A stretch of DNA of 64,000 bases from positions 14,462,235 to 14,526,234 of the forward strand of contig NC_087084.1 in the NCBI RefSeq assembly GCF_026151205.1, given 5' to 3'. This document shows, one piece after another, positions 4,403 through 62,924 of this stretch. The notes below the pieces were generated by a model. It was given only the letters and a program-made list of their open reading frames with translations. It ran no database searches and was not told where the DNA came from. This DNA comes from Bolinopsis microptera. Lineage: Eukaryota > Ctenophora > Tentaculata > Lobata > Bolinopsidae. The first letter of the stretch is position 1. Every line of letters begins with the position of its first letter. A program made the position numbers and the translations under genes.

Positions 4403-5154
4403 ACTCAGCTACAAGACACTCAGCTACAAGACACTCAGCTACAAGACACTCAGCTACAAGGCACTCAGCTACAAGACACTCAGCTACAAGACACTCAGCT
4501 ACAAGACACTCAGCTACAAGACACTCAGCTACAAGACACTCAGCTACAAGACACTCAGCTACAAGACACTCAGCTACAAGACACTCAGCTACAAGACACT
4601 CAGCTACAAGACACTCAGCTACAAGACACTCAGCTACAAGACACTCAGCTACAAGACACTCAGCTACAAGACACTCAGCTACAAGACACTCAGCTACAAG
4701 ACACTCAGCTACAAGACACTCAGCTACAAGACACTCAGCTACAAGACACTCAGCTACAAGACACTCAGCTACAAGACACTCAGCTACAAGACACTCAGCT
4801 ACAAGACACTCAGCTACAAGACACTCAGCTACAAGACACTCAGCTACAAGACACTCAGCTACAAGACACTCAGCTACAAGACACTCAGCTACAAGACACT
4901 CAGCTACAAGACACTCAGCTACAAGACACTCAGCTACAAGACACTCAGCTACAAGACACTCAGCTACAAGACACTCAGCTACAAGACACTCAGCTACAAG
5001 ACACTCAGCTACAAGACACTCAGCTACAAGACACTCAGCTACAAGACACTCAGCTACAAGACACTCAGCTACAAGACACTCAGCTGCAAGACACTCAGCT
5101 ACAAGACACTCAGCTACAAGACACTCAGCTACAAGACACTCAGCTACAAGACAC
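4403..5154. repeat. Homogeneous 15-bp satellite, about 50 copies of acaagacactcagct
   Basis: About 50 head-to-tail copies of acaagacactcagct. I see only two single-base variants (a g for a near 4456 and near 5085). The near identity points to very recent amplification. The unit is a multiple of three, but no open frame is carried through it. Confidence 0.97.
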
Positions 5155-15447: not shown

Positions 15448-16910
15448 TGAGCGTCGATCACTTAATCAATTGATGAGGTGATCAGCTGATCCCACGGCAT
15501 AAATGTCAGTTCTGTTCTAAATTCTGGACAACATCCACTAATTTTAAACGGTGAAATATGCTCAGCATCAGCTTTATAGTATATAAGCTCTTTAAGCGAT
15601 AATATATAAGCTCTTTAAATAATACAACCATTGCTTATTCTAGCAGTCAAATGAACAAGTTCCTGACGATTTTTGTTTTGATTTTGAAGCATCATAGTAT
15701 GGTATTTGAAAAAGTTTAAAATTGTTAAGTTCAAAGTAGAATATGGGGCAAATTATAAACAAAAGTCTATTTTATTTTCTCAGACTCACTGTTGATGTAA
15801 AATCCGGATTGGAGTATTATTTATGAGTCGCATTGTTGTAATGTATTCTGGATAAAATTATCTTTATCCCGGTTGTTGCGACAAGTAAAAATGCTCTTAT
15901 TAGGGAAAGGAGATTACTCGACGTTTCAATGTAACTACATCGTATTCATGATCTCAAATTATTTGTTATACAGTAGTGTTGAAAGTATTTACTTTTCACA
16001 ACATCCGGGATAAAGATAATTTTAACCAGAATACACTCACTGTTGACTTAACAAATACATTTTTTTTCAAACAATATACACATAATATAGCAATGACCCT
16101 ATATAAAAATTCTTTAAAAATGGTACCCTTTGTAACAATATATAACAAATTCACATCACAACAAAAAGCAGTTTAGGCCCCTATCCAACAAGCACTCCAT
16201 GACCTTTTAGGGTTTAGGAGTGTTGATCAGGTTAAGGTCCAAATCACTTATTGCCGTAGGTGGAAGAGTTCTGGTACCTCTGTACCCCCTGATAGAGTCT
16301 ATTTAATGCCATTTTGGTACACCCTATGGAATACTCAATTTCATCATGGACCATGTATATGTGTGTTTATATTTGCTTGTTTAAAGGGCTGTTTATTTTA
16401 GGCTGTAACCTTATTAGTTCAATGGAATAAACCTAGCATGCTTTGGTTGCAGCATCGCAACGATGTAATTGCTATGATCACTTTACTGGTCAACTGGTGT
16501 TTCGGTGTCCCTAATTTTGTTTACACTCGGTCACTTGTCAAGGCATGTAAGGTCATTCGGCGAGATTTTCTTTGAAATAAAATGATGTATTTATATAACA
16601 ATTTGAAAGTTTATTGATTTAAAAAAATTTCAGTTGGTAGCAATGGACCATTTTTGTAGGTTTATAACTTTGTCATTTGTATCACGTCGTGACACCACTG
16701 TCGTTCATTATACCAAGACGCGCGCCGAGTTGGACTCGTCGACGGTCTTGAAACAAATATTTTACGATTCCCACCTGTTGAGACCATTTCTGTTACCCAT
16801 GCGCGCGCCACGGGCCAAGGGCTCTGGATAGAGCAATTACCCGTGTATTTGGTATTGTGCTGATCTGGTAATTGCAACACTTGAATTGACTGTGCTCCGC
16901 GCCAATTGCT
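15448..16910. other. Gene-free stretch with an inverted repeat
   Basis: An inverted repeat of about 36 bp, with arms at about 15842-15878 and 15998-16034 (core aaaattatctttatcccgg), encloses about 120 bp and looks like a MITE remnant. The GC-rich patch at about 16715-16845 contains gcgcgcgcc and ends agggctctggatagagcaa, a motif shared with a short MITE family found at 17490-17568 and about 56280-56355. No protein-coding gene is recognised. Confidence 0.5.
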
Positions 16911-16912
16911 TA

Positions 16913-17000
16913 CCTGAGGACATCAGGCTATCATGTTTATAAACATTGCATATGAACAGAGATTCGGCGGAATGACAGGCAGAGCGCGGCCTAGTAAGAT
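16913..17000 (+). repeat. Dispersed repeat fragment shared with 27375-27460
   Basis: Starts acctgagga and continues through a diverged middle to ggcggaatgacaggc, then gagcgcggcc. The same order of motifs occurs at about 27375-27460, inside an intron insertion of the first PRDM9-like gene. This is an unnamed dispersed repeat family. Confidence 0.65.
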
Positions 17001-17224: not shown

Positions 17225-17906
17225 AGGGGGTGCACGATAAAAATAAACTTGCTCGGATTTTTAAAATTTTTGTACCACTGTTTTCTAGAGACTGTGAGAA
17301 TTTTCACAATACCAAATTTGTCATACCTTTTTGGAAAGATCAGTGAGTTTCGCCTAGGTGCCATATTTGATGGTGCGCGGCTTTTGGAGCAAAAGTAGCT
17401 GTAAAAGTCGCGTAATTTGACCAAATTCGTCCAAATTTGACCATTTTTGTCGAATTATTCAGATTTATATTCAGTTCCTTAAATGAGATTTGCTCTAACC
17501 AGAGCCCTCTCGCTTGCAGTAGCGCAACAAGCGCGTCACGCAGTACGCGTAGGCACATGGCTATGTGAAAATGAGATCATTCTGAAAATTGGCGACGAAC
17601 TTTCAAAAGGGCTTTCACAACTGTCCGAAAAATTTGGTGGATATCGGAGTTGATATAGAGATCAAAATGGGGCAAAATACGCTGCTTTTAGCTGTAACAT
17701 AATGTTTGATGGTTGGATATGCTTTAAATTTTTCGGACACTTTCCTTGTCAGTCTATGAGTAAGCTTACCAATTTTTGTTGCAATTGGAGGTCGAGAAGG
17801 ATACTCAATATCTATTTATTTGAAGAAAATTGTGCTGGCCGAAATTAGCGCTAAAAAACCATCATACAGTCGGCACGCGCGGCTCACTGTCGATGGCGCA
17901 CTACCT
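17225..17906 (+). mobile_element. Mutator-like MITE, copy 1 (682 bp) with 9-bp target duplication
   Basis: Flanked by a perfect 9-bp direct repeat, agtgtgcct, at 17216-17224 and 17907-17915. The termini are AGGGGGTGCAC at the left and, read inward from the right, AGGTAGTGCGC, giving a short imperfect terminal inverted repeat. It is homologous over its whole length to 57733-58326. The 9-bp duplication points to Mutator-like elements. It has no coding capacity. It contains a 79-bp nested insertion absent from the other copy. Confidence 0.85.
17490..17568 (+). mobile_element. 79-bp MITE nested in the Mutator-like MITE
   Basis: Flanked by 9-bp direct repeats aaatgagat at 17481-17489 and 17569-17577. 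The empty site (a single aaatgagat) is present in the other copy of the host element near 57990. It begins ttgctctaaccagagccct and is related to GC-rich pieces ending or starting with that string near 16815-16837 and 56282-56355. Confidence 0.75.
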
Positions 17907-18063
17907 AGTGTGCCTCGCCGAGCTGCGATGAATTGACATCGTCAATTAACTATTTCATTTTCACATATTTTTTCTATTGAAATTGTAAAAAGCGGTTCAC
18001 GTTTGCATGCATTCCATCCCAAAAAACCTTACCATCTGTCGGGCTCGCTAGAGGTGATCGATA

Positions 18064-18152
18064 TTCAACAGCGCGTTTGTCCTCGCGCGTTACATAAAGT
18101 TCACCTTGCGCACTTTGTATTTAGCCTAGTACTAATAGTTATGACAACCACT
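18064..18152 (+). repeat. Dispersed repeat fragment shared with 55487-55573
   Basis: About 88 bp, with only a few differences from 55487-55573, starting ttcaacagcgcgtt and ending agttatgacaaccac. No termini are recognised. Confidence 0.8.
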
Positions 18153-18199
18153 ATCATATTTTACCTCTAAGTTATTATATTCATAGACATGTCTGAGTG

Positions 18200-21100
18200 G
18201 TTATGTTTTGTTGTTTCACACTCACTCATTCCCTTAGCATGTAAATACAACAAGGATGTAAATATAGAGGATTCAGGTGAACGGAACGAGAGCTAACCCT
18301 GAAGGGCAGGTAGTGTAATGTTTAGCTTATTTTGGTTTCTATGTAGTAGTTTCAGTTTCTTTGTAGTAGTTCCTTTAGTCCTAGGTTTGTAGTTTTGGTG
18401 TTACTACTTTCTAACATACTTTCTTATATTTACAGGGTTGTTTTTAGTTCTAGTGAGTGTCTGCTGCTGTAAGAGTGAAAGCCAGACAAGTCAAGTTCCA
18501 GTGTGTGTGTGTGTCACGGGGACCACACAGAAGAACCTAAAGAGAAGATCTAGTGTTTGTGAGTAAGGGAATATCACAACACGTTCACATCACTTCTGGG
18601 GAAGTGATAGAAGAATTAGTTTCTAAGAAGTTAGAAGAAGTTAGAAGAAGTAGTTTATAAGAAGTTTGAACTGTTATTAAGAAGGATTTACAGTTTTGGG
18701 AAGATTTGTTTGTAATCACATTACCACACCACTCACGAGGTTAAGTGAGTGAGAGTTGTGTTTGAGGTCTGTTGAGTAACGTGCAGTGATAGTGAGTGCA
18801 GCGTTAGTGTGCTAACCCATTACCAATTTGTTAACAATTCATTTACTAACCCATTTAACCAATTGTTACCAAATTTAGTTACTAACCCAAATTACAACTT
18901 GTTTTACTTTGTCTCCCGTGATTGATCAGAACATACAATTTAACAGTGGTAGCAGGAAGGAACGATTAGATCAATCATGGGGGAAGACAAAGTCCCTAGG
19001 TTAACAGATACAACGTGTTATGGGGATTGGAAGAGAAGGGTTACTGTATGGGAAGTCTCAACGAGCACAACTAAGAACAAGAGAGCAGCTACCCTTATAA
19101 CGTGTATGAGCGGTAGACCAGAGCAGGCTGCTATCCAACTCAAAATCGACGATTTGAAAGGAGAAGATGGAGTAAAGAAACTGATAGCAGAAATGGACAA
19201 ACTGTTCCTACCAGACAATACCCAGCAAGTGTTTAACGCTTTGGATGCTTTTTTGGAGTATAAAAGACCAGCTGATCTATCTATGGAAGATTACTGCAGG
19301 GAGTTTCACTACAAGAAGAAAATAGCAGAACAGATGAGCGACAAGACAGACATGTTTGATGATGGTGTCCTTGGCTATTTCCTACTCAAGAACAGTGGTC
19401 TTGAACAGAACAGTATGACCTTAATTAGAGCTACAGTGACGAAGCTCGAGCTCAGTTTGGTGGAAGGAGCTTTGAAGAGAACGTTTGGAACAGGACTATC
19501 AGGTACGCTGATGGGTTCTTCGGGACTGGGAACATCAGCTATGTCGATTAAACAAGAAGTGATGTACAATCGACACTCTTCAAGCGAGACTGATCAGTCA
19601 GGGGACTGTTCCTCAAGAAATCAAGCATCTACATCGCTCACTAGTTCAGATGAGGCAGAGAACGAGACCTTCTACAACAAAGACTCAAAATCGTATGGAA
19701 ACAGAGGATCATACCATGGTTATAAGGCAGGAAACAGTTTTAGCTCAAGAGGTAACTACAGAGGTAACTACAGCGGTGATTACAGCGGCAGGGGTAACTA
19801 CCAAGGGAACTACAGCAACAGAGGAGGCAGATACGGCAGCAGAGGGGGTTCCAGCTTCAGGGGAAGAGGAAAGTACAGTATCCAGAACAACCAGCAGAAC
19901 AACAGGAAGGATCAGAACTTTGTTTGTTTCTACTGCGGGGGTGAAGGACATAAAATTGCAGACTGTCCCAAGAGACTAGCGGAGAAGTCTACGCAATACT
20001 TCCAGTCCTTTGCTAACGTCCAAAACAGTGAGACTTTCTTGTGCCATAAGACCTACAACGGTGCCTTGTTGGATTCAGGCGCTAGTGCTACAGTTTGTGG
20101 GGAACAGTGGATGACGAAATTTGAGTATTCACTGACGACTAGGGAGAAGAAACTGGTGCAAGAAGAGCCGTGTCATCAAGTGTTCAGATTTGGTGACAGT
20201 GACCCCATCATATGTACGACGAGGAAGAACATACCCATAACCATCTGTGGGAATGATATCATGCTATGGACATACGTTGTGGAGAGTGACGTACCCTTAC
20301 TCTTGTCCAGAACAACTATGTCAAAGATGGGCTGTCAGATAGATTTCCAGAGGAGCGAAATCAAGGTATTTGGACGGACAAAGAAGCTTGTTATAACAGA
20401 TTCTGGTCACATGATTATCCCCTTCGAAGCCAGAAAAGTGATCAAGTGTGATGAACCAGAACCAAGCCCAAAGACTAAGCCAGCTTCAACTGATCAAGCA
20501 TCATACATTGTAGATTTGGAGAATAGTAAAAAGACGGCAGAACATCTACACAAGTATTTTGCCCACGGATCTGCTAACAAGATCAAAGAAGTTGTGTTAG
20601 AGTCAAGCTTGGAGAAGAAGAGCGAAGTGTGCAAAGAGCTTGATCTGATAGAAAAATCTTGTGATCAATGCCTGAGACACAAGAGTAAGAAGATACCGCA
20701 TAGAAAAGTTGCTCTACCTGCAGGGAAACCTTTCAACGAAAGAGTTGCGATGGATCTAAAGATGCTTGAGTCTGGGGATACTATTTTGCACATGATCGAT
20801 TGTGTAACCCGATATGCAATGGCGATCAGCGTAAAGAGCAAATCAGCTAATGAAATACTGGAGAAAATATTCAGAGTCTGGATCTCAGTATTTGGAAGAC
20901 CTGGTCAGTTCTTAACTGACAACGGAGGAGAGTTTGTCAATCAAGAGTTTAACGAAATGTGCCAACTACTTGACATCGTTATCTCCACTAGTCCTGCAGA
21001 ATCACCTTTCTGTAACGGTATGGTTGAGCGCCATAATGGCATCCTGGGAAAGATGATAGACTCAACTATGGGAGACACAGGATGTAGCTTGGAAACTGCG

Positions 21101-23176
21101 ATTTCCTGGTCTGTAAATGCCAAGAACACACTGACTAACGTGCAAGGATTCTCCCCAAGTCAGCTAGTGTTCGGCTACAATCCTAGCAACAGCAGCTTAC
21201 TTGATGAAAGACTGAAGCTATCAGTCCTTAAGACTGAAACTACAAGCAAGTTGGTAGCTAATATGATAAACGCCAGGGATACAGCAAGAAAGAAGTTTGT
21301 ACAACTTGAGAACACCAGCACCATCAAGAAAGCTCTTACTGAACGTGTGTATGCAGGGAGGAATAAACAGTATAAGAATGGAGATAATGTTTATTTCAAA
21401 CGTGAGAAAAGCAAGTCATGGCAAGGACCTGCTGTGGTAGTTGGACAGATTGACAACATAATTGTTATCAAGCATGGGGGACTGCTGTATCGTGTCCATC
21501 CTTGCAAGATAATAGAGAAGCACGAGGCTGACAGTCAGATTAATGGGGATGCAGAAGAAGGAAAATCTGATCAGTTGGAGGAGCCTGACACAGCAGCTGT
21601 CAAACGAATGCTATCAACACTGGATAGTGATGCAGATCCAGATTCTGATAGCAACTACGACATCCTTGAACCCAGTGACTTGGTTCAAGAGCTGGAAGAA
21701 GACGAGATTCAAAGACCCTCGGAAGAACAGAGTCAGGTGGGAGTTGGAGGACAAAAACCCTCTGAAAAGCAGAATCAGACGGGAGTTGGAGTTCCCAGAA
21801 TGAGCCAGAACGCTGCTAAGCCTAATACAGGAAGTACACCTTCGCAATCCAGCGGATGGAAGCCTGTGCCAACTTCTAATGGAAAGTTGAAACTGAAGAA
21901 AGATGACGTGATACGGTACAAGAATAGTAATGAAGAAGAATGGAAAAATGGTATCATCATCGGCAGAGCTGGTAAGGCTACTGGGAAGATGAAGAACGAG
22001 TTTAACATCTTGACAGAAGATATAGAAGACCCAGAACCCATACTGCTTGATAAAGTTGAGGTTGAGGTACAAGGTACCTACCACCTTGTAACGGATGTTG
22101 AAAAGGACGACCCAGCTCTCATCAAGGCTAAAGAGGAGGAGATCAAGAGATTTCAAGAATTCGACGTGTTTGTTGAAGTTAAAGACCATGGACAAACCAG
22201 TGTAACGTCTAGGTGGGTCATAACTTCAAAAGGAGATGGAAAGTACAAGGCAAGACTAGTTGCCAGAGGATTCCAAGAAGAACTTAACGGACAGTCCGAT
22301 GCTCCGACTGTGAATAAAATTAGTAAGAGGCTCATGTTCACAGTTGCTGCATGCCGAAAATGGGAAGTAAAGAGTTTAGATGTAACAAGTGCTTTTCTCC
22401 AAGCAGATGAACTCGACAGGGAGATTTTTGTCAAACCACCAACTGACATAAGGAGAAAAGGCATTGTTTGGAAGCTAAAGAAACCACTTTACGGTTTGGG
22501 TGATAGTGCTAGAAGATGGTATCTAACTTTAAGAGATAGACTCATAGAGGCTGGATGTGTTATCTCAGTTCTAGATCAGTCAGTATTCAGGTACTATGAT
22601 GAGAGGAATAGTTTGTGTGGTATCATAGTAACCCACGTTGATGATCTATTGTATGCTGGGAACACCAAGTTCCAGAGAGAGATTATGAGAAAAGTACTGT
22701 CATACTTCAAGATATCAAGAATGAACGGAAAAGATTTCACATACCTTGGATGGTCAATAACTCAAGAAGATGGTTACATATCCGTGAATCAGCGAGAATA
22801 CTGCAAGTCCATTGAGCCTGTAACTGTCAACTCAAAATCACCTAAAGACAGTGAGCGTTTCTTGAATGATTCAGAGAAGACCAAGTATCAAGAAACATTG
22901 GGGAAGTTGTTATGGCTAAGTAGTCAAACCAGACCTGACCTCAGCTATGACACGATGGAACTGTCGACCTACACAAGTTCAGCTAAAGTCAAACACCTCA
23001 GTATTCTTAACAAGGTCGTTAAGAAAGTTAACTATGGACCCCAAGAGATCAAATATACCGAAATGGATATTGATCAAGGTGAACTGCAAGTAATATTCTA
23101 CTCAGATGCCAGTTTGGGTAACCTGCCCAACAAGATAGACAGTGGGAGAGGCTATCTAGTCTTTATAGCTACTTAG
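18200..23176 (+). mobile_element. Ty1/copia LTR retrotransposon fossil 1 (incomplete)
   Basis: Parts are in copia order. A presumed 5' LTR lies somewhere between about 18200 and 18945 with its left edge unresolved. A primer-binding site, tggtagcag, at 18947-18955 matches the 3' end of animal initiator Met tRNA. A long gag-pol frame then starts at 18977. In that frame I see a gag domain, an RGG/GNYSG-rich stretch, a CCHC knuckle (CFYCGGEGHKIADC, near residue 316), a protease DSGA motif near residue 367, a pre-integrase zinc region (H..H..C..C, about 524-570), an integrase core with the D, DNGGEF and VERHN blocks (about 590-690), and a reverse transcriptase with the VDDLL box near 1220. The start of an RNase H region is seen, but no 3' LTR is recognisable, so the copy is incomplete. 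The long frame argues for a fairly young insertion. Confidence 0.9.
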
Positions 23177-23922
23177 TCCACATACCTTGCAAACTTACAG
23201 CACGGTATTTGTAATGGTCTAAGTTCCTAATACGCGCCAAAGATGGTCCCACTAGTCAATCGTAGGAGGAGAGAAAGCTTAACAACAAATTAGGTGGCTG
23301 CATTTTGTTTTGATTTTATTAGGTCTTAGTATTTATCCCCATTTATCCCCATTGTTTTAAAGTTTTAAGAGAACTCTCCTTAAATTATTTTAATGCAGTC
23401 ACTCAGATAAGTTTATACCAGGACACTTCAACAAAGACACATACTCTGCCCACAATAAGGGGCCATAATTGTTTCAATTATGTAACTGTATAGAATTATT
23501 ATTATTATTGCTTTAGAATTTTTATTTAAATTTTGAATTGCGCTGATAAAAATGTATGATTGAGACGAATCTTCGAGTAGTTCACTACTATATAGTAAAA
23601 AAGCTTATTTTAAATTTCGTTAGCATATCCAATATTCATGAGTTTATTATCGGATGTTTAAGTTTAACTATGTTTATTATGATATTATTATTCATTGTAA
23701 TATGGCAATAAAATTTAAATTTTGTTTTACTTAAAATTTTGTTTTACTTATCACCCTGTGTTGTTCCTTCCTCAGATTTATTAACGATTTAAATTTAAGT
23801 CAAAATTTAAATATAAGTTATATGTATATCTGTTTTGTAAATTATGAACTCTAAGTTGAGTTATAAAATCATGAACTAACTGTTCCTTCCAACTAAAACT
23901 AGTTTGTAATATTTAGAACATA
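23177..23922. other. Spacer between copia fossil and first PRDM9-like gene
   Basis: AT-rich. A purine stretch (taggaggagagaaag) lies at about 23262-23276. The last 150 bases before the ATG at 23923 resemble the sequence before the second PRDM9-like gene (28880-29017), so promoter or leader sequence was duplicated together with the gene. Confidence 0.5.
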
Positions 23923-26900
23923 ATGTCACTGTGGAAGTTGTTTGAAGGGGCCAGGTACTGTGGAGGTGTGTGTGAACACAGTCTCAAAAGATACAAGAGA
24001 ATAAGAGACAACAGAGATAAGTTGGTGGAACTGGGTTTTATGACACTAGATGAACCACTGGAATGTTACCGGACTAAAGAATGGGAGGAACATACCTCAG
24101 CCTACTCACAGTGTAAGTTTAATCTTCATCCGTTAAACAAATAATGAACTAACAATTAATGAACCTCTCAACCTCTGAACTTCTGCTCCAACTTCAAATA
24201 GGTTACTGTGATTGATCAAATTATTGCACGATTTTGTGAAATTAGTCTTTGGACACGGTAGTGTCAAAACTCATTTCCGTATTATAAAATAACCATTATC
24301 TCATATCGCAGATGAAACATTGCTGAATCAGTATGAAGATGGGTTGATAAAACTTGAGGAGGTTGTTAATATTGATCCCAGAAACCCCGCTGAGAGGTAC
24401 AGCTCAGACAGTGACAAAGACAGTCCTGTAGTCAATAAGAAGAAGAAATCTCCCAACAAAAAGAAGAAGTCCCAGAAAGGTAAACAAAAGAATGGAAGAG
24501 TTGAGACTAAAATGATAAAAGAAGAACAGCTGGATTGTGTGGAATGTGTAAGACAAGTTAATCAGCCTGAAGAAGCTGAAGCTCCTGAAGTAGAGGAACT
24601 AGAGATGTTCCTACACTCAGAACCTGAGTCTGTACCAGCATTACAAGATCTACTTGTCAACAAGAATCTAGCTTCTCACCTCGGAGAAGGTCCTGTAGAT
24701 GTGTGTAAACTGATTGCAGAAAACCCTGAGTTTACACATGAAATATGTGAGGCTAACATAGACTCTCTTATGTCTGATGAGGAGTTCTATAAAATTACTT
24801 GTGAGACTTATCCTGGTGGCTGGGAGAAATTCCTGGAGGACATGTTAGTTACATTATATCTTCTTATTTAATTTGATTTAATAGCTTGAATCTTGATCAT
24901 AATTTATATTTAGTTTTTGAACTTAATAATGTTATGGTATATTTAATGGGTACTACTTTACAGGGAGAATGAAGAGTCTTCAGATGAGGAGATAGATAGA
25001 ATTGAGCTGCCCCCTGACCTCTATAATGAACTTATGTCAGACAAGAGTAATGATGTACCTGACGATGATGAGGAACAGTATAAGTTTGGTAGAATAAACA
25101 AGGACCAGGCAGATACTTGTCTTGATCGAGCACTTGAGTTGTATGATAACTATCACAACATGACTCAGGACGAGTTAGTTTTTAATTTTGGTACTTTGTT
25201 GTCTTACACATAAATATACATTTAATTGCTTCTCTTAACTACTGCATAATACATATTTCGTAATTGTAGTTGATTGCATGTTGCTAGTTCATTTTAAATA
25301 CGACTAACATGTTAATTGTTTATTCCGCAGGTATAACAAAAAAGTGAAGGAAGTGCTCAAAGATATGGATAGAATTACTGTTCTAGATAATGTTGGCGAC
25401 CATACCAAAGCGAGTACTAACAAAAGTATCATACCACAAAGAAAAGAATATATTGGAACAACACCTGAACATAATGAAAACTTACCCTCTTGTAGCAGTA
25501 CCCACAACGATACTGAACGTAGTGACATGGTAACTCCAGATAAAAGAAGCAGTAGTTATCATAAGAGTATAAGAGACAATGTGAGAATTGATAACACATC
25601 TGGTGTAACAACAGAGTCTAATACCAGCTCCAGCTCTGTAACACAAACAAAGAAACTCCCCACCATACTTAGTAACAGAGAAGTGTACGAGAATATTGAC
25701 AATATTCCCCGTCCTTCTTATTGGTTACCTGAGTCAGAACCTGACCCTGAGAAGAAAGAAGAAGAGATAGATGATTTTGAGTATCTAGGAATGTTGGATG
25801 ATGGTTATCTACTGAGCTTGTTCGACGAAGATAAAGAATCAGAAGAGATTCCAAACATTACACAGACAAACATTAGTGTTCCTACAGAAACGACTGCTGA
25901 GAGAGATAATATTCAGGAAGACTTTTCCAAGACAGAACTTGAAGCAGCTGCAGGAAAAGCTTCTAAAAATATACGTAGTAACCCTCCTAGAGTTGCTAAA
26001 GAGGGGGTTACATACCGTGATGATAACGATAATCTGGAGGAGGTGTTACAGTCTGAATATTGTAAGTTACAATACGTAGAGTTTACTTATTGTTTACTAT
26101 ATGGTATTTTTTGTTTGGTAGCAACAACTGAAATTAAAGTTGATACTATCAGAATTATAATGATCTCTCAGAATTTTACTAAATCTTTGCTTAAATTAAA
26201 TAGTAATGTTACTGTTTCTTTTACTGTAATAATTCAGTGGATTCTTTTATGAATGATGTTTTTAATGAAATTCTGTTTTTCAGTTTGTTGGCAGTGTAAA
26301 GATTATGTGAGGGGAGAATGTGAACTACATGGTCCTTTACTCCCCTGTTTAGAAGACATCACTCAACCGGGAACTAAGAAGACTGCAAACTTCCCAGCAC
26401 CTAGTTGTATTGAAATCAAGGAATCTACAATTCCCAGGGCTGGAGATGGAGCTTTTGCGTCTCAGTTTATTGAACCAGGAAGTATATTGGGTAAGTCACG
26501 TGATTTGCTGGGATCAGCGTTTACTTCTTTTTTTGGTGTCCACTGTCCTTTCTCCAGACAGCAAGTCTATAAATGTTTTGTACCCTAAAGTGGGTTGTTC
26601 TGATTTATCTATTTTATCAGGTAACTACAAGGGAAAAGTCATATCAGAAAAGGAGTACAAGAAGTTAGAGTCTTCAGATAAAGAGAGTGGATATGCGTGG
26701 AGAGCTGTTAGTCAGGACGGAGATGTTATCTATCTAGATGGGGCTAGTCACAGGGCTAGCAACTGGTTACGGTTTCTTAACTGTGCTCGGGGTCAATGTG
26801 AAGAGAATGTCCTTGTTAGAAATATCCCAGGTAAAATTGGGTGCACATATGCGCCAGTTTTCTACGTTTTTACTTATCTATTTACATGAGTTGTGAATAT

Positions 26901-28786
26901 TTCATACCCAAGTATGTTGGGCAGAATCTTTATAAACCTGCAACTGCCAACTTACCATCCACAGATTAAATAAGCTGTATTTTACTTAGGTGTATTCTGG
27001 TGATGAAATAACATTGGTTTAGTTAATGACTATTAGTATAAATAAATATTTGTATCGTTGTGCAATGCCTTCTATCATGGAATAATTATTCTAGGTGGAA
27101 TACAGTATTATTCGTATAAACCAATTGGGTTGGGAGAGGAATTACTAGTTTTTTACGGAGAGGACTATTTCGAAGAGTTAGGGTATTCGTTGCAGACTGA
27201 TATTGAAAATGGTGAGAACAATCTCTAACTTTATCCCTTAAAATGTAACAAGAATTGCGCCCGTTTTTTCGTTTTGGCGGACGCTAGATTTCCATTTCAC
27301 ATTTACTATACATTTAAGTATAAGCTCCAATCAGCTCACTTCAATCTTCATGATAATAATATTGATAAATTTTACCTGAGGACCCCAGGCTTTAATGTTG
27401 GTAAACAACAATAGAGATTAGGCGGAATGACAGGCTGAGCGCGGCCCAGTAATGATAAATTATGCATCAAGTACGGGAAACACTTGAAATTTAGTTCAAT
27501 TGCCGTAGAACTTAACTTGTATCTGTAATTCAAAAAATTATCAGCAAAGGTAAACTATACTCGTGTACACATCAATACACTACGCGTGCCACGTACAAAT
27601 TGGGCGTATTACCTAATAGTAATATTATACATTACATGCATCGATCATATACATTAAAACACAGTCGCGCCGCGCATTTATAGATCACAGGCTATCTATA
27701 CATCACATCTCTGCAAGCAATCCTCGCGCGCGCGCGACTTTTTCGTTGCATGGTAACGGACGGAATGACATCATATAACGAACGAACACACGACATATTT
27801 AAACCCACCTATCTCGTTCTCCAAAATCCACGTTTTTCTGCAAAAACCTCCATTCGTAACCTTTCACTATTGCCTTTTTTCAAAAGAGTGAAAAGGAAAA
27901 AATTAAGTGAACACGAGACTATTTTTATTATATTGCTGGACAATTCCTCACTTTATTTCAGTAATCTTCCATTAATACAGGTCAACAATATCATTGCACT
28001 GCAACTGGTTGTCTTAAGCTGTTTAAGACACAACAAGAACTGGAGACACACACATGTGGGAAGACTCGAGGAGTATCAGGAAAAGAGAAAGTACATAAGT
28101 GTGCCACGTGTGGGAAGATGTTTGGTTGGAGGAGTGACTTAACAGCACACATCAGGACAGTACACGATAAGGTAGCGAGACTCAGCTGTCCCTACTGTAA
28201 ATATAAAACTGATACTCAGCAGCACCTCACATATCACATGTTAACACATACGGGAGACAAACAGTACAAATGTACACAATGTGACTATACTGCTGTTCAG
28301 AAGCACCAACTCACTTCTCACATCTACAATAACCACACTAACAAGACATACAAGTGTCGGTACAAGCAGTGTGGCGTTAAGAAACCTTCTGAACAGGAAC
28401 TATATGATCATATCAGCACAGAGCATCCACTACAACAATACAGATGTGATGTGTGTCCGATGTCTTATAACACAGCAGGACAACTTGAATACCACAAGAG
28501 AACACATGGTGATCGTGAGCTAGAATCACAACACGAGTGTAAGTACTGTGGAAAACTGTTTTTAGAATCAGGTACTCTGAAGAGACATGCTCTGACACAC
28601 ACTGGAGAGAAACCATACAAGTGTAGTGTATGTGGTAAGGGGTTCAATAGGAGCATTAATTTAACTAGACACATGATGACACACACAGGCGAGAAACCGT
28701 TCTCCTGTTCTTACTGTGATAGGAGGTTTAGGGTAGCTTCTAACAAAAACAGACATGAAATTACTTGCAAGAATAAACCTTGTTGA
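23923..28786 (+). CDS. PRDM9: PRDM9-like histone methyltransferase with C2H2 array, copy A (8 exons, 1000 aa)
   Basis: Exons are 23923-24112, 24312-24843, 24964-25173, 25331-26061, 26284-26490, 26621-26830, 27095-27211 and 27981-28786. The introns are GT-AG, phases agree, and the total is 3003 nt. Domains in order: a KRAB-like box (about 1-50, with YKRIRDNRDKLVELGF); a Lys-rich nuclear signal (about 105-125); acidic disordered regions; an SSXRD-like segment before residue 555 (NPPRVAKEGVTYRDD); a zinc knuckle CWQC...ECELHGP; and a SET domain over exons 5-7 with NWLRFLNCAR and ELLVFYGEDYFEELG. The last string matches the catalytic PRDM9 segment ELLVWYGDEYGQELG. Then come a post-SET finger and about eight C2H2 fingers with TGEKP-type linkers. 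PRDM9 writes H3K4me3 and H3K36me3 and places meiotic recombination sites in vertebrates; that role here is inferred. The ATG is the first of an exon conserved in copy B. An extra noncoding 5' exon is possible. Confidence 0.88.
27246..27898. mobile_element. About 650-bp insertion in intron 7 of PRDM9-like copy A
   Basis: The matching intron of copy B (32358-32487) lacks this block. Intron sequence shared by both copies stops at about 27245 and resumes at about 27899. The block contains a cgcgcgcgcgac patch and the dispersed fragment also found at 16913-17000. No target duplication or inverted termini were recognised, so the class is unknown. It entered after the gene duplication, or was lost from copy B. 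Confidence 0.6.
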
Positions 28787-29017
28787 AGAAATTGTTATTG
28801 GTAGTTTTCTTATAGTTTGACGAATTACTTTATCCCTATTGTTTATTGGACTATATATTTTTCTTCTATTAAAAGTTATTTTATAATTCTTGATCGTATT
28901 TATATAACTTTAAACCAACATTTGATTAAGATTTAAATTTAAGTTATATTTATTATATCTCTGTTGTAAACTAACTGTTGTTTCCAACTAAATCTACTTT
29001 GTAATATTTAGAACATA
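28787..29017. other. Spacer between the two PRDM9-like genes
   Basis: Only 231 bases separate the stop of copy A from the ATG of copy B. It must contain the 3' end of copy A and the promoter or leader of copy B. The first part matches the sequence after copy B (33294-33400) and the last part matches that before copy A, as expected for a tandem duplication unit of about 5 kb. Confidence 0.7.
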
Positions 29018-32000
29018 ATGTCACTGTGGAAGGTGTTTGAAGGGGCCAGGTACTGTGGAGGTGTGTGTGAACACAGTCTCAAAAGATACAAGAGAATAAG
29101 AGATAACAGAGATAAGTTGGTGGAACTGGGTTTTATGACACTAGATGAACCACTGGAATGTTACCGGACTAAAGAATGGGAGGAACATACCTCAGCCTAC
29201 TCACAGTGTAAGTTTAATTTTCATCCGTTAGACAAATAATGAACTAACAATTAATGAACCTCTCAACCTCTGAACTTCTGCTCCAACTTCAAATAGGTTA
29301 CTGTGATTGATCAAATTATTGCACGATTTTGTGAAATTAGTCTTTTAACACGGTTGTGTCAAAACTCATTTCCGTATATAATAATCATCATCTCACATCG
29401 CAGATGAAATATTGCTGAATCAGTATGAAGATGGGTTGATAAAACTTGAGGAGGTTGTTAATATTGATCCCAGAAACCCCGCTGAGAGGTACAGCTCAGA
29501 CAGTGACAAAGACAGTCCTGTAGTCAATAAGAAGAAGAAATCTCCCAACAAAAAGAAGAAGTCCCAGAAAGGTAAACAAAAGAATGGAAGAGTTGAGACT
29601 AAAATGATAAAAGAAGAACAGCTGGATTGTGTGGAATGTGTAAGACAAGTTAATCAGCCTGAAGAAGTTGAAGCTCCTGAAGTAGAGGAACTAGAGATGT
29701 TCCTACACTCAGAACCTGAGTCGGTACCAGCATTACAAGATCTAATTGTCAACAAGAATCTAGCTTCTCACCTCGGAGAAGGTCCTGTAGATGTGTGTAA
29801 ACTGATATCAGAAAACCCTGAGTTTACACATGAAATATGTGAGGCTAACATAGACTCTCTTATGTCTGATGAGGAGTTCTATAAAATTACTTGTGAGACT
29901 TATCCTGGTGGCTGGGAGAAATTCCTGGAGGACATGTTAGTTACATTATATCTTCTTATATAATTTGATTTAATAGCTTGAATCTTGATCATAATCGTGT
30001 TTTAGAACTTTTGCTCGTGTTTCTTTTTGCATAAATATTTGTCAGATTCTCAATGATGTTTTGTTTTTGAACTAAACAATTTTATGATATTATATATTTA
30101 ATGGGTACTACTTTACAGGGAGAATGAAGAGTCTTCAGATGAGGAGATAGATAGAATTGAGCTGCCCCCTGACCTCTATAATGAACTTATGTCAGACAAG
30201 AGTAATGATGTACCTGACGATGATGAGGAACAGTATAAGTTTGGTAGAATAAACAAGGACCAGGCAGATACTTGTCTTGATCGAGCACTTGAGTTGTATG
30301 ATAACTATCACAACATGACTCAGGACGAGTTAGTTTTTACTTTTGATACTTTGTTGTCTTACACATACAAATTCTATGGCTTCTCATAACCACTGCATAA
30401 TATATATTTTGTAATTGTAGTTGATTGCATAGTGCTAGTGCATATTAAAGATTGCTAACATGTTGATTCTATATCCCGCAGGTATAACGAGAAAATGAAG
30501 GAGGTGCTCAAAGATATGGATAGAATTACTGTTCTAGATAATGATGGCGACCATACCAAAGCGAGTACTAACAAAAGTAACATACCACAAAGAAAAGAAT
30601 ATATTAGAACAACACCTGAACCGAATGACAACTTACCCTCTTGTAGCGGTACACACAACGATACTGAACGTAGTGACATGGTAACTCCAGATAAAAGAAG
30701 CAGCAGTTATCATAAGAGTATAAGAGACAATGTGAGAATTGATAACACATCTGGTGTAACAACAGAGTCTAATACCAGCTCCAGCTCTGTAACACAAACA
30801 AAGAAACTCCCCACCATACTCAGTAACAGAGAAGTGTACGAGAATATTGACAATATTCCCCGTCCTTCTTATTGGTTACCTGAGTCAGAACCTGACCCTG
30901 AGAAGAAAGAAGAAGAGATAGATGATTTTGAGTATCTAGGAATGTTGGATGATGGTTATCTACTGAGCTTGTTTGATGAAGATAAAGAATCAGAAGAGAT
31001 GCCAAACACTGCACAGACACAAATTAGTGTTCCTACAGAAATGACTGCTGAGAGAGATAACATTCAGGAAGAATTGTCCAAGACAGAACTTGAAGCAGCT
31101 GCAGGAAAAGGGTCTAAAAATAGACGTAGTAATCCTCCTAGAGTTGCTAAAGAGGGGGTTACATACCGTGATGATAACGATAATCTGGAGGAGGTGTTAC
31201 AGTCTGAATATTGTAAGTTACAATACGTAGAGTTTACTTATTGTTTACTATATGGTATTTTTTGTTTGGTAGCAACAACTGAAATTAAAGTTGATACTAT
31301 CAGAATTATAATGATCCCTCAGAATTTTACTAAATCTTTGCTTAAATTAAATAGTAATGTTACTGTTTCTTTTACTGTAATAATTGGGTGGATACTTCTA
31401 TAAATGATGTTTTCAATGGAATGCTTATGTTTCCAGTTTGTTGGCAGTGTAAAGATTATGTGAGGGGAGAATGTGAACTACATGGTCCTTTACTCCCCTG
31501 TTTAGAAGACATCACTCAACCGGGAACTAAGAAGACTGCAAACTTCCCAGTACCTAGTTGTATTGAAATCAAGGAATCTACAATTCCCAGGGCTGGAGAT
31601 GGAGCTTTTGCGTCTCAGTTTATTGAACCAGGAAGTATATTGGGTAGGTCACGTGATGTGATGAGATCAGTTTTTACTCCTTTTTTTGGTGTCCACTGTC
31701 CTTTCTCCAGACAGCAAGTCTATAAATGTTTTGTACCCTAAAGTGGGTTGTTCTGATTTATCTATTTTATCAGGTAACTACAAGGGAAAAGTCATATCAG
31801 AAAAGGAGTACAAGAAGTTAGAGTCTTCAGATAAAGAGAGTGGATATGCGTGGCGTGCTGTTAGCCAGGACGGTGATGTTATATACCTAGATGGGGCTAG
31901 TCACAGGGCTAGCAACTGGTTACGGTATCTTAACTGTGCTCGGGGTCAATGTGAAGAGAACGTCCTTGTTAGAAATATCCCAGGTAAAATTGGGTGCACA

Positions 32001-33293
32001 TATGCGCCAGTTTTCTACGTTTTTACTTATCTATTTACATGAGTTGTGAATATTTCATACCCAAGTATGTTGGGCAGAATCGTTATAAACCTGCAACTTA
32101 CCATCCACAGATTAAATAAGCTGTATTTTACTTAGGTGTATTCTGGTGATGAAATAACATTGGTTTAGTTAATGACTATTAGTATAAATAAATATTTGTA
32201 TCGTTGTGCAATGCCTTCTATCATGGAATAATTATTCTAGGTGGAATACAGTATTATTCGTATAAACCAATTGGGTTGGGAGAGGAATTACTAGTTTTCT
32301 ACGGAGAGGACTATTTCGAAGAGTTAGGGTATTCGTTGCAGACTGATATTGAAAATGGTGAGAACAATCTCTAACTTTAGTAGTACGATTTATCCCTTAA
32401 AATGCAAAATTAAGTGAACCCGAGACTATCTTTATTATATTGCTGGACAATTCCTCACTTTATTTCAGTAATCTTCCATTAATACAGGTCAACAATATCA
32501 TTGCACTGCAACTGGTTGTCTTAAGCTGTTTAAGACACAACAAGAACTGGAGACACACACATGTGGGAAGACTCGAGGAGTATCAGGAAAAGAGAAAGTA
32601 CACAAGTGCGACAAGTGTGGGAAGATGTTTACTGAAAGAGGTACCTTAACTGCACACATCAGGAGAGTACACGATAAGGTAGCGAGACTCAGCTGTCCCT
32701 ACTGTAAATATAGAACTGATACTCAGCAGCACCTCACACTTCACATGTTAACACACACGGGGGACAAACAGTACAAGTGTACACACTGTGACTATACTGC
32801 TGTTCAGAAGCAGCATCTTACTTCTCACATCTACAATAACCACACTAACAAGACATACAAGTGTCGGTACAAGCAGTGTGGTGTTAAGAAACCTTCTGAA
32901 CAGGAACTATATGATCATATCAGCACAGAGCATCCACTACAACAATACAGATGTGATGTGTGTCCGATGTCTTATAACACAGCAGGACAACTTGGATACC
33001 ACAGGCGAACACATGGTGATCGTGAGCTAGAATCACAACACGAGTGTAAGTACTGTGGAAAACTGTTTTTAAAATCTGGTGATCTGAAGAAACATGCTCT
33101 GACACACACTGGAGAGAAACCACACAAGTGTAGTGTGTGTGGTAAGGGGTTTACTGAGAAATGTACTTTAACTAGACACAAGAGGACACACACAGGCGAG
33201 AAACCGTTCTCCTGTTCTTACTGTGATAGGAGGTTTAGCGTAGCTTCTACCAAAAACAAACATGAAATTACTTGCAAGAATAAACCCTGTTGA
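29018..33293 (+). CDS. PRDM9: PRDM9-like histone methyltransferase with C2H2 array, copy B (8 exons, 1000 aa)
   Basis: Exons are 29018-29207, 29404-29935, 30119-30328, 30482-31212, 31437-31643, 31774-31983, 32241-32357 and 32488-33293. All eight lengths equal those of copy A, and the frame is open throughout. The architecture is the same: KRAB-like box, Lys-rich stretch, SSXRD-like segment, CWQC zinc knuckle, SET domain (NWLRYLNCAR, ELLVFYGEDYFEELG), post-SET finger and C2H2 array. By eye I count about 23 residue differences from copy A in the 770 or so residues before the array, most of them in the disordered exon 4 and only two in the knuckle-SET exons. In the last 222 residues there are about 28. 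Half of those fall on helix positions -1, 2, 3 or 6. Both copies look functional. They are probably a recent duplicate pair with different DNA targets. Confidence 0.88.
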
Positions 33294-35963: not shown

Positions 35964-38425
35964 GCGAAAGCTATGTAGTTGATCAGACTTAAAGTTACGT
36001 GTTCTTAAGAGGGTGAGAGGTTCTTTAGTAAGGCCGACTGATTAAATGAGGCTCTGAAATGAACAGGAATCTAGCAATAATAGCATGGAGAGTGGGGAAA
36101 ATCAAAACGCGGAATAATAATCTAACTCTAAGTTAACGATAAACTGGTACAGAAATCAAAAGTCTAGGAGTAGGAAATAGCTGTGAACCAAACAAACAGA
36201 ATAGCACCCGTGCATGATATATCAAAATATGTACCGTTCTAGGATGCCTCCGCAAACTTTTGCTCCTCTGTAAATGCACGTGTTAGTGCTGTAGCGAAAG
36301 CTATGTAGTTGATCAGACTTCAAGTTACGTGTTCTTATTAGGGTGAGAGGTTCTTTAGTAAGGCCGACTGATTAATTGAGGCTCTAAAATGAACGGGAAT
36401 CTAGCAATAATAGCATGGAGAGTGGGAAAATCAAAAAGCGGAATAAATAATCTAACTCTAAGTTAACGATAAACTGGTACAGAAATCAAAAGTCCGAACA
36501 CGGAGTCTAGGAGTAGGAAATAGCTGTGAACCTAACAAACAGAATGGCACCCGCGCATGATATATTAAAATATGTACCGTTCTAGGATGCCTCCGCAAAC
36601 TTTTGCTCCTCTGTAAATGCACGTGTTAGTGCTGTAGCGAAAGCTATATAGTTGATCAGACTTAAAGTTACGTGTTCTTAAGAGGGTGAGAGGTTCTTTA
36701 GTAAGGCCGAATGATTAAATGAGGCTCTGAAATGAACAGGAATCTAGCAATAATAGCATGGAGAGTGGGGAAAATCAAAACGCGGAATAATAATCTAACT
36801 CTAAGTTAACGATAAACTGGTACACAAATCAAAAGTCCGAACACGGAGTCTAGGAGTAGGAAATAGCTGTGAACCAAACAAACAGAATGGCACCTGTGCA
36901 TGATATGTTAAAATATGTACCGTTCTAGGATGCCTCCGCAAACTTTTGCTCCTCTGTAAATGCACGTGTTAGTGCTGTAGCGAAAGCTATGTAGTCGATC
37001 AGACTTCAAGTTACGTGTTCTTATTAGGGTGAGAGGTTCTTTAGTAAGGCCGACTGATTAAATGAGGCTCTAAAATGAACGGGAATCTAACAATAATAGC
37101 ATGGAGAGTGGGGAAAATCAAAAAGCGGAATAAATAATCTAACTCTAAGTTAACGATAAACTGGTACAGAAATCAAAAGTCCGAACACGGAGTCTAGGAG
37201 TAGGAAATAGCTGTGAACCTAACAAACAGAATGGCACCCGTGCATGATATATTAAAATATGTACCGTTCTAGGATGCCTCCGCAAACTTTTGCTCCTCTG
37301 TAAATGCACGTGTTAGTGCTGTAGCGAAAGCTATGTAGTTGATCAGACTTAAAGTTACGTGTTCTTAAGAGGGTGAGAGGTTCTTTAGTAAGGCCGACTG
37401 ATTAAATGAGGCTCTAAAATGAACGGGAATCTAGCATGGAGAGTGGGGAAAATCAAAACGCGGAATAAATAATCTAACTCTAAGTTAACGATAAACTGGT
37501 ACACAAATCAAAAGTCCGAACACGGAGTCTAGGAGTAGGAAATAGCTGTGAACCAAACAAACAGAATGGCACCTGTGCATGATATGTTAAAATATGTACC
37601 GTTCTAGGATGCCTCCGCAAACTTTTGCTCCTCTGTAAATGCACGTGTTAGTGCTGTAGCGAAAGCTATGTAGTCGATCAGACTTCAAGTTACGTGTTCT
37701 TATTAGGGTGAGAGGTTCTTTAGTAAGGCCGACTGATTAAATGAGGCTCTAAAATGAACGGGAATCTAACAATAATAGCATGGAGAGTGGGGAAAATCAA
37801 AAAGCGGAATAAATAATCTAACTCTAAGTTAACGATAAACTGGTACAGAAATCAAAAGTCCGAACACGGAGTCTAGGAGTAGGAAATAGCTGTGAACCTA
37901 ACAAACAGAATGGCACCCGTGCATGATATATTAAAATATGTACCGTTCTAGGATGCCTCCGCAAACTTTTGCTCCTCTGTAAATGCACGTGTTAGTGCTG
38001 TAGCGAAAGCTATGTAGTTGATCAGACTTAAAGTTACGTGTTCTTAAGAGGGTGAGAGGTTCTTTAGTAAGGCCGACTGATTAAATGAGGCTCTAAAATG
38101 AACGGGAATCTAGCATGGAGAGTGGGGAAAATCAAAACGCGGAATAAATAATCTAACTCTAAGTTAACGATAAACTGGTACACAAATCAAAAGTCCGAAC
38201 ACGGAGTCTAGGAGTAGGAAATAGCTGTGAACCAAACAAACAGAATGGCACCTGTGCATGATATGTTAAAATATGTACCGTTCTAGGATGCCTCCGCAAA
38301 CTTTTGCTCCTCTGTAAATGCACGTGTTAGTGCTGTAGCGAAAGCTATGTAGTCGATCAGACTTCAAGTTACGTGTTCTTATTAGGGTGAGAGGTTCTTT
38401 AGTAAGGCCGACTGATTAAATGAGG
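35964..38425. repeat. Dimeric satellite, 330-344 bp units, main part
   Basis: Units start (gcgaaagct) at 35964, 36294, 36637, 36980, 37324, 37659, 38003 and 38338. Odd units carry cttaaagttacgtgttctta followed by agaggg. Even units carry cttcaagttacgtgttctta followed by ttaggg. The array is therefore a higher-order repeat of about 679 bp made of two unit types. The later dimers are almost identical to each other. No unit encodes a protein or a recognised RNA. Confidence 0.92.
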
Positions 38426-48260: not shown

Positions 48261-50340
48261 TTTATTACCTACTATATGTTTTGATTCTATGTCCTTAGAA
48301 GGGTATTCTTCTAACAGTTTTTGACTGACTTGAATGTACTGCACAGCATCTTGAAGCTTCTTTAAATTATTTTTATCCTTCTTGAATTTCTATGTAAATT
48401 TCCCAAATTTAATTCTAATTCTAATTCTAATTGTAAACAATTCTCAGAAGTTCATATTGTGGTTAATTTTTTCCCACTGTTTTCACTGCCTTGTTCAACA
48501 GCCTAGCAAGTCATATATCCCTTTTAACCAATTTTATGACAACATTTCTCGATAACTTTTATCAAAACCCTTGAAGTGTCCTTTGTTGACAATAAAATGT
48601 TCAAGACTAAAACCATGGAAACATGTGCGAACTTAAAATAAGGTTTAAATGCAAATTTGTATGTAACTGTAAGTTGTAACAGAGCTTTTCATAGATCGAA
48701 GTAACGAAATATAATTATAAGTTATAACTGATTAGTAAATACCTCATATTTGTAAAATAATCTGAAGAGTAAGGGCTATCTGCTGATGTATGTTGAGGTT
48801 GCCTTTCACCGTGTTGAGTGCCGATCTTTTTTTCATTCTTATTGAAGATCTATTGATTTTGCAGTGAATTAAAATAACTTAAGTTTTCATGCCACGTTAA
48901 TCTTAATTAAATGTGTTTAACAAGGACATGAATGTATTTAAATCCCAAAACTGAGTTGATCCTGTAAATCAACACCCAACGGTTCTCAACTTATCGTAAC
49001 CAGCTGCACACATACATTTTTGAATTCTGTAATTTCGATATTCAGAAGTAAATTTATGACCCGTCGAAAAATTTTGATTTCATCATAAAATACACATAAA
49101 ATTTCTTGACACCCTGCTGTACATGGTCTGAAGTTAAAGGAAATAAAATTAAAGAATGTGTAACAATCCTTCGACAGATTATAACTTTGTTTTACTGATG
49201 AAATATAAATTAAAATCCGTTTTAACTGGATTTAAATCACTGAAGCTGCAAAGACTTTACATTCCAAACTAACGAAAGATGACTACATTCATTTCAGCGG
49301 ACTCTAAAAAAATTAAATCACGATTTGCAATTTCAGCTACAGCTGATTTAGAGAGTGAAGTTTGTGGCAATAGTTTAAATTCGGACCATCTAAAGTCATT
49401 CCAAAGGCCCTGTAGCAATACTTGACAATTTTCATGAAACCGAAATCAAACTATCGTTTTGACTCGCTAAGTCAATTGAAATAATTATTGAAGAAGAAAC
49501 AACTTAGTTAAAATGAATTTAATCAAATTTGTGTTTGACAAAACAGGTTTTAAATTCGTTGGTACTACACAGCTACCAACACAATTTTGTAACTTCGAAG
49601 CCAAAGTTATGCGGAGGGTAGTCTTCAACGATTGCAGATTGTAAAATCTAGCAAAACACGCGCCCCTCTGAAAATAAAAAACCCATCTTGGACTAAAATT
49701 CAACGAATGATACATGCAGTTAATATCAAATCATTATTTCACAAAAGTTATGTTCAATACTAATTATAAGAAAAATAAACTGGGTAGAATTTATGGCATT
49801 TAAACGGTTGTTATAATGACGAAATGCCGTACAAATCGGCGCGTGGCTCTGTGTTTTCAGTTTACTGATTTATACATTATAACTTAAATATGATCGCAGA
49901 AAGAATATTTGCTACCTCCCTTTTGATGCAAAACAATTGAACCATATATTTATATAATTATAATGTAATGTAAGAATGATACTTGTATCAAATATATATC
50001 ATATTACTACCATATTTATCAGCACACAACACTGAATTGAACGCCGCGCGTATTTGACGGTAACAAATAACATTAACATAAACTATTATTACTAATTAAT
50101 TCTAATTATAAATTGGCTCATCATACAAAATAATCTAACAACACAATATAATATTAAGTTGTAAGTGTTGACACATAATTGATCGCTATTCTATTCATAT
50201 TTCGCGCGGCGCAAGCGACCGTCCGTTAACACACTCGCTGCTTATAATGTATGCGTCTATTGCATCATTAATGGAAGGCGCGCCGGTGAAATTTTTGCGC
50301 GCGAATTTACGATTTAAACGAAAAGAAACTGCAGGGGAGA
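48261..50340. other. AT-rich stretch, no gene seen
   Basis: Contains ttctaattctaattctaatt near 48410. Short minus-strand frames such as 49485-49715 have no family signal. Confidence 0.45.
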
Positions 50341-62920: not shown

Positions 62921-62924
62921 GATA

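Follow-up and report, generated by a model that had tools for sequence, protein, structure and literature searches.

Two PR/SET zinc-finger genes in tandem

A 64,000-nucleotide stretch of the ctenophore Bolinopsis microptera (contig NC_087084.1), hereafter called the window, carries two PR/SET zinc-finger genes on its plus strand. The two genes, copy A and copy B, lie head-to-tail and are both intact, with eight exons and 1000 codons apiece (Table 1). The gene models were made by hand and spliced; all seven introns follow the GT-AG rule and the reading frame stays open. The modelled start is the first ATG past an in-frame stop, and an extra 5' exon is possible. Exon lengths are the same in A and B (190, 532, 210, 731, 207, 210, 117 and 806 bases), and the duplicated unit falls into three blocks in which the copies are 94-98% identical. 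The spacer from the stop codon of copy A to the ATG of copy B is 231 bases long (28787-29017). A TAATATTTAG-AACATA stretch, which resembles a splice acceptor, stands before the ATG of A and of B, and the two genes might be co-transcribed or trans-spliced.

Table 1. Coordinates of the two genes and their parts within the window.
Feature	Position	Strand	Remark
Copy A, PRDM9-like gene	23923..28786	+	1000 codons, intact; spliced model
Copy A exons	23923-24112, 24312-24843, 24964-25173, 25331-26061, 26284-26490, 26621-26830, 27095-27211, 27981-28786	+
Copy A KRAB-like stretch, residues 23-50, exon 1	23989..24072	+	suggestive; same residues as copy B
Copy A zinc knuckle and PR/SET, exons 5-7 including introns, residues 556-732	26284..27211	+	2 of 177 residues unlike copy B
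Copy A lone post-SET finger-like motif, residues 736-758	27989..28057	+	same in copy B
Copy A eight-finger C2H2 array, residues 773-1000	28100..28786	+	finger register
Copy B, tandem paralogue	29018..33293	+	1000 codons, intact; spliced model
Copy B exons	29018-29207, 29404-29935, 30119-30328, 30482-31212, 31437-31643, 31774-31983, 32241-32357, 32488-33293	+
Copy B KRAB-like stretch, residues 23-50, exon 1	29084..29167	+	suggestive ungapped match
Copy B zinc knuckle and PR/SET, exons 5-7 including introns	31437..32357	+	Pfam and PDB matches; tyrosines
Copy B lone post-SET finger-like motif	32496..32564	+
Copy B eight-finger C2H2 array	32607..33293	+	14 of 32 contact residues unlike copy A
Copy B finger 1	32607..32672	+	changed T, E, T at -2, -1, 3, as in finger 7
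Copy B finger 7	33129..33191	+	changed T, E, T at -2, -1, 3, as in finger 1

The domains of copy B were matched by Pfam to the PR domain (PF21549, 4e-24), SET (1.2e-9) and C2H2 fingers. When its knuckle-SET region was searched against PDB sequences, the top matches were three PRDM9 chains, from 2.5e-19 (4c1q) to 4.5e-18, which aligned from the zinc knuckle on; PRDM12 (5.5e-16) and then PRDM11 (3.3e-14) were the next families. Kinship within the PRDM genes was judged by these matches, which compare the families with solved structures and are no tree. Residues 626, 698 and 714 are tyrosines in both copies and align with positions 82, 147 and 163 of the 4ijd chain, each a tyrosine, and with human Y276, Y341 and Y357. 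We take the chain numbering plus an offset of 194 to give human PRDM9 positions 276, 341 and 357. The importance of these three catalytic tyrosines of PRDM9 is described in PMC5519329. At residue 675, one of the two SET differences, copy B has tyrosine as in human PRDM9 and copy A has phenylalanine. In both copies SET spans three exons and the array lies in one exon, which is the partition given for canonical Prdm9 (PMC11703093). NCBIfam returned nothing for the array exon of copy A. Relatives of the knuckle-SET region were not found in prokaryote genome contigs or viral contigs, as expected of an animal gene, so these searches supplied no outgroup or tree.

We also considered whether the pair could be two allelic haplotypes that were placed end to end by misassembly. 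An intron divergence of about 5% falls within the range of highly polymorphic marine animals, and the identical exon lengths would suit alleles as well. Alleles, however, should stay alike across their flanks, and here the flanks diverge more than the genes and contain gaps: 11 of 111 aligned bases differ in the 5' flank (150 bases; 9 gap events) and 11 of 94 in the 3' flank (112 bases; 5 gap events). Farther out, A and B show weak gapped similarity. Both outer alignments outscored 500 of 500 mononucleotide shuffles, one of them by just 100 against 98 in A+T-rich sequence. Intron 7 of copy A also carries an insertion of about 640 bases (27234-27898) that is missing from copy B; its segment 27372-27456 is 80% identical to 16910-17000, and no inverted repeats were found around it in 27200-28000. 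Judged from the flanks, misassembly is very unlikely.

Divergence at the DNA-contact positions

The arrays were counted from the first cysteine of finger 1 (residue 773), which gave 228 residues for comparison. Between A and B, 28 of these differ. The four canonical contact positions of the recognition helix (-1, 2, 3 and 6) are changed at 14 of 32 residues, against 14 of 196 elsewhere in the array (Fisher one-sided p = 7e-7). The 38 codons of exon 8 ahead of the array show zero differences. The earlier note on this DNA had estimated by eye about 28 differences in the last 222 residues, about 14 of them at the 32 contacts and about 14 in the remaining 190 or so, and two in the knuckle-SET exons. 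Its total was right for 228 residues, but the last 222 hold 26, since its array boundary was six residues off. The contact count proved exact; the count outside the contacts was also right, with 196 as the proper denominator. The two knuckle-SET differences were found as described, and so were its examples in finger 1 (W/S/D to E/G/T), finger 6 (E/T/R to K/D/K) and finger 7 (R/I/N to E/C/T). The concentration of A/B differences at contacts is strongly confirmed.

The contact changes are spread over six fingers (three each in fingers 1, 6 and 7, two each in 3 and 8, one in 2), with none in fingers 4 and 5. By position over the eight fingers, there are five changes at 3; three each at -2, -1, 2 and 6; two at 8; and one each at -4, 1, 5, 9 and 10, the rest of the range from -7 to 11 having zero. 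The other four of the 28 differences lie between or ahead of the cysteines. Zinc ligands and helix position 4 are unchanged between the copies. A wrong finger register, which the earlier note had named as a way in which its observation could fail, was ruled out: when the difference vector was shifted circularly, the true register was the only one of 228 that placed 14 differences on contacts. If any four finger positions are chosen (3060 combinations), a total of 14 is reached by four choices: the contacts themselves, and three in which -2 replaces one contact.

Selection was first measured by counting, with kappa 2, which gave 72.5 nonsynonymous and 23.5 synonymous sites at the contacts. Contact codons carry 20 nonsynonymous differences and 1 synonymous difference, a ratio of nonsynonymous to synonymous divergence (dN/dS, or omega) of 7.9. 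The counted omega was 0.38 in the non-contact codons (190 of the last 222), 0.28 in helix positions 1, 4 and 5 alone (4 synonymous changes in 21 sites), 0.14 in the knuckle-SET region and 0.55 in the N-terminal 555 codons. SET is under purifying selection in both copies. A two-class codon model was then fitted by likelihood, with time set either by the array or by the whole coding sequence (CDS). Omega was 3.45 at contacts and 0.39 in the rest with array time, and omega = 1 at contacts was rejected (p 0.0015); with whole-CDS time the values were 5.5 and 0.31 (p 4e-7 against 1). Contact dN/dS is above 1 under both calibrations. The codon comparison proposed in the earlier note thus came out with contacts well above the rest of the array, and its claim of positive selection on specificity between tandem paralogues is supported by the counted and the likelihood values alike. 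From these sequence comparisons, positive selection on the DNA contacts is supported as the best reading of the differences.

This conclusion depends on the background rate: it assumes that the array evolved about as fast as its synonymous sites, of which the last 222 codons have 166.5, with 13 changes. The introns differ at 60 of 1206 aligned sites, on par with the CDS synonymous divergence (dS) of 0.050. We simulated neutral evolution of the 32 contact codons starting from copy A. The mean number of changed contacts was 3.2 at the CDS rate and 5.1 at the array rate, compared with the 14 observed, and at neither rate (array dS 0.082) did any of 4000 runs reach 14 changes. The probability of at least 14 was 0.15% at a dS of 0.105 and 0.4% at 0.12. 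These simulations bear on a relaxed constraint, in which only the structural residues are conserved and the contacts are free to drift neutrally. The invariant zinc ligands and helix position 4, and the spread of the changes over six fingers, would suit such drift, and a count of 14 would be ordinary if the local divergence were at least 0.2. The contact omega above 1 and the purifying selection on SET speak for selection instead. Relaxed constraint was rejected by simulation at the array and CDS rates, though not for a local divergence near 0.2, and we consider it highly improbable overall.

Several points nevertheless weigh against selection on the contacts. The simulated probability of at least 14 changes rises to 6% at a divergence of 0.167, 15% at 0.20 and 37% at 0.25, and synonymous divergence is 0.22 in finger 1 and 0.16 in finger 2, at about 20 sites each. 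Position -2, which is no canonical contact, is as variable as -1, 2 and 6, so that the contact pattern is not perfectly clean. The tests compare just two sequences, copy A and copy B of this one window, and give the changes no direction.

Patchy divergence and probable exchange between fingers

Divergence between the copies is uneven. Intron 6 differs at 1 of 257 sites and intron 3 at 21 of 152 (chi-square over the seven introns, p 9e-7). In SET exon 6, silent differences cluster in five codons (651-661; 26701-26733) with near-identical sequence on both sides, possibly a conversion tract. Such unevenness is the expected trace of gene conversion, whether between A and B or involving a third, unseen copy. 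No third copy was seen in the window: when A and B were masked, tblastn of copy A had a single match there, of 26 residues (E 0.83).

A similar patchiness appears within the arrays. Copy B fingers 1 and 7, which share changed residues (Table 1), also share bases. At 16 base positions A and B differ in finger 1, in finger 7 or in both; B1 and B7 agree at 11 of these positions, and A1 and A7 at 7. A naive randomisation gave P 5e-5 for the shared patch, uncorrected for 28 finger pairs. Fingers 1 and 7 are also the most alike pair in either array (69% in A, 76% in B). When finger 6 of copy A was compared with finger 7 of copy B, all five of the bases at which it differs from its copy B counterpart matched. 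For the residues shared by B1 and B7, the simpler reading is exchange, though parallel selection could yield the same. Short-tract exchange probably contributed to the contact divergence.

These observations raise the alternative that gene conversion brought in the contact differences as whole blocks, with other fingers or a third paralogue as donors, in place of selected point changes along the two copies. The uneven introns, the exon 6 cluster, the B1/B7 patch and the match of A6 to B7 all agree with it. Further, fingers 1 and 7, the likely sites of exchange, hold 6 of the 14 contact changes; with these two fingers removed, contacts are changed at 8 of 24, and omega falls to 2.0 with array time (p 0.13). 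Two- or three-base differences are found in 6 of the 14 changed contact codons, and these fit exchange or multi-base mutation and raise omega. Conversion tracts, however, would bring synonymous changes along, and contacts have 20 nonsynonymous changes to 1 synonymous, even if the neighbouring helix codons 1, 4 and 5 do hold the four synonymous changes given above. The fingers besides 1 and 7 keep an omega of 3.2 with CDS time (p 0.0057), and a donor that brought in other contact residues would need to have diverged at these positions in its own right. The figure for the B1/B7 patch is also softened by the 28 possible pairs and by parallel selection. Conversion as the whole explanation is thus a serious possibility, though one that we hold to be the lesser.

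Relation to PRDM9 and possible function

The explanation that we favour, with moderate confidence, is an intact tandem pair of PRDM9-like genes that share a near-identical SET domain and whose DNA contacts selection has driven apart. Both copies would keep their methyltransferase domain under purifying selection while positive selection drives the DNA-reading residues of A and B apart. Part of the change may come from short-tract exchange, either among fingers (at least 1 and 7) or by transfer from a further gene copy, with patchy gene conversion between A and B as background. The two proteins would then bind different DNA sites and methylate H3K4/H3K36 at them. If they act as PRDM9 does, a single haplotype might in this way define two sets of meiotic break sites.

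At the N terminus, a KRAB-related domain is suggested by a 28-residue ungapped match of copy B to the KRAB-related segment of human PRDM9 (P 0.003 within the N-terminal 90 residues and 0.022 within 555 residues; the query letters were approximate). Pfam KRAB was unmatched in copy B with whole and partial sequences, and SSXRD was not found by Pfam in copy B, in a search that had no positive control on invertebrate PRDM9. Four tests with approximate human segments as queries gave a best P of 0.12, just ahead of the knuckle. The fingers within an array are 24-76% identical in bases and not homogenised like fast PRDM9 arrays. A part in meiotic recombination is suggested by kinship. By sequence the pair is classed as PRDM9-like rather than as a complete PRDM9, because its KRAB match is weak, the SSXRD searches were negative and its array is unlike the mammalian minisatellite.

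Fast contact change in PRDM9 is usually linked to finger-shuffling minisatellite arrays. The share of within-array diversity that falls on contacts was 0.17-0.20 here with a 28-residue frame and 0.26-0.31 with a 17-residue core, against 0.41-0.68 among the rows listed from Table 1 of eLife 2017, in a comparison where only four of the eight fingers fit the eLife 2017 motif and no ranking against the species' other genes was made. Homogenised fingers with contact-concentrated diversity, by which rapidly evolving PRDM9 is recognised, were not found in this array. What had been called the classic sign of PRDM9 therefore holds for the selection on contacts and for the PRDM9-type SET and knuckle, and does not extend to a homogenised minisatellite, to SSXRD, which was not found, or to KRAB, which is weak.

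The contact-site pattern is expected in other fast-evolving zinc-finger families too, so it is no proof of a role in recombination. The selection could be real and the pair could be duplicated zinc-finger repressors or other regulators, for example of repeats, rather than selectors of break sites. The contact pattern is silent on recombination, and the non-minisatellite array, the negative SSXRD searches and the transposon-like frames (recognised by eye) and satellites in the window are all compatible with such regulators. The knuckle and SET being nearest to PRDM9 by sequence, the three kept tyrosines and the canonical exon partition of SET and array argue the other way. We regard the regulator explanation as the less likely one.

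Compared with full-length vertebrate PRDM9 (Meisetz), the pair shares the closest knuckle and PR/SET, the three tyrosines, the exon partition and positive selection at contact sites. It differs in having about 500 residues from the KRAB-like stretch to SET with no SSXRD detected, in its non-repetitive array and in being present as two intact tandem copies. PRDM11 also has a zinc knuckle and PR/SET, and as the third PDB family its alignment likewise starts at the knuckle; unlike this pair, PRDM11 is not known to have a C2H2 array.

Invertebrate PRDM9 offers parallels too. According to Oliver 2009 (PMC2779102), positions -1, 3 and 6 of Nematostella Prdm9 are under positive selection, in Capitella one codon is, three similar Capitella sequences may be alleles or rapidly diverging paralogues, and Ciona is reported to be without a signal of concerted evolution or positive selection. 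In the Prdm9 of Nematostella, Lottia and Capitella, as that account has it, the signal lies among fingers with concerted evolution, whereas here it lies between two genes whose fingers are not homogenised; contact selection in an invertebrate PRDM9 (in Nematostella, and at one codon in Capitella) is common to both. Ruminant PRDM9 duplicates resemble the pair as duplicated copies with selected arrays, two of three copies being described as keeping arrays with selection at -1, 3 and 6 (PMC5351255). By the same source they are found on chr1 and chrX, and their tandem-repeat arrays vary in size; here the copies are adjacent, with eight fingers each. Teleost PRDM9-beta is given as lacking SSXRD, which was not found here either, and its array is not described as repetitive in the relevant passages of PMC5519329 and PMC11703093; these report substitutions of the catalytic tyrosines and conserved fingers, whereas here the tyrosines are kept and the contacts differ strongly.

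Contact-site selection in invertebrate PRDM9 has thus been known since 2009, and the present pair, in tandem and with arrays that are not repetitive, is an unusual form. A literature search over titles and abstract openings in one collection of papers returned no invertebrate tandem pair with non-repetitive arrays among the matches listed, and in the literature on corals, molluscs and annelids PRDM9 was absent among the matches listed. A 2018 review (PMC6116924) states that PRDM9 orthologues beyond vertebrates were not yet carefully examined. Full-length PRDM9 homologues are reported in cnidarians and sponges in a 2026 review (PMC13186367), which gives as unknown whether PRDM9 function was kept since the animal ancestor.

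A bolder version of the favoured explanation takes both genes to be functional invertebrate PRDM9 genes, side by side and with non-repetitive arrays, whose contacts were pushed apart by selection and finger exchange. Each haplotype would then hold two specificities, as a fixed 'permanent heterozygote' in which hotspots turn over without a minisatellite. We think this improbable. A tandem pair whose ordinary arrays, without repetition, differ chiefly at contacts would imply that the arms race can also proceed by way of duplicated genes and short exchanges, and it would be a natural system for asking whether PRDM9-directed recombination exists beyond vertebrates.

The window as a whole has a G+C content of 39%, and an Rfam scan at gathering scores and a tRNA scan of it were empty. 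Upstream of the pair, an open frame of 1407 codons (18953-23176), Copia-like by eye, ends about 750 bases before copy A; direct repeats of at least 60 bases were not found in 17500-23900. A frame like it lies at 50290-52836 and runs on in another frame to 53188. Starting 2.7 kb downstream of copy B is a satellite (35964-38425) with a 344-base unit in about seven copies and without an Rfam match. At 4403-5154 a 15-base unit is repeated 50 times with 99% matching, and several reading frames are open through it. Minus-strand open frames at 61440-62937 encode ephrin-receptor-like repeats and an SRCR domain.

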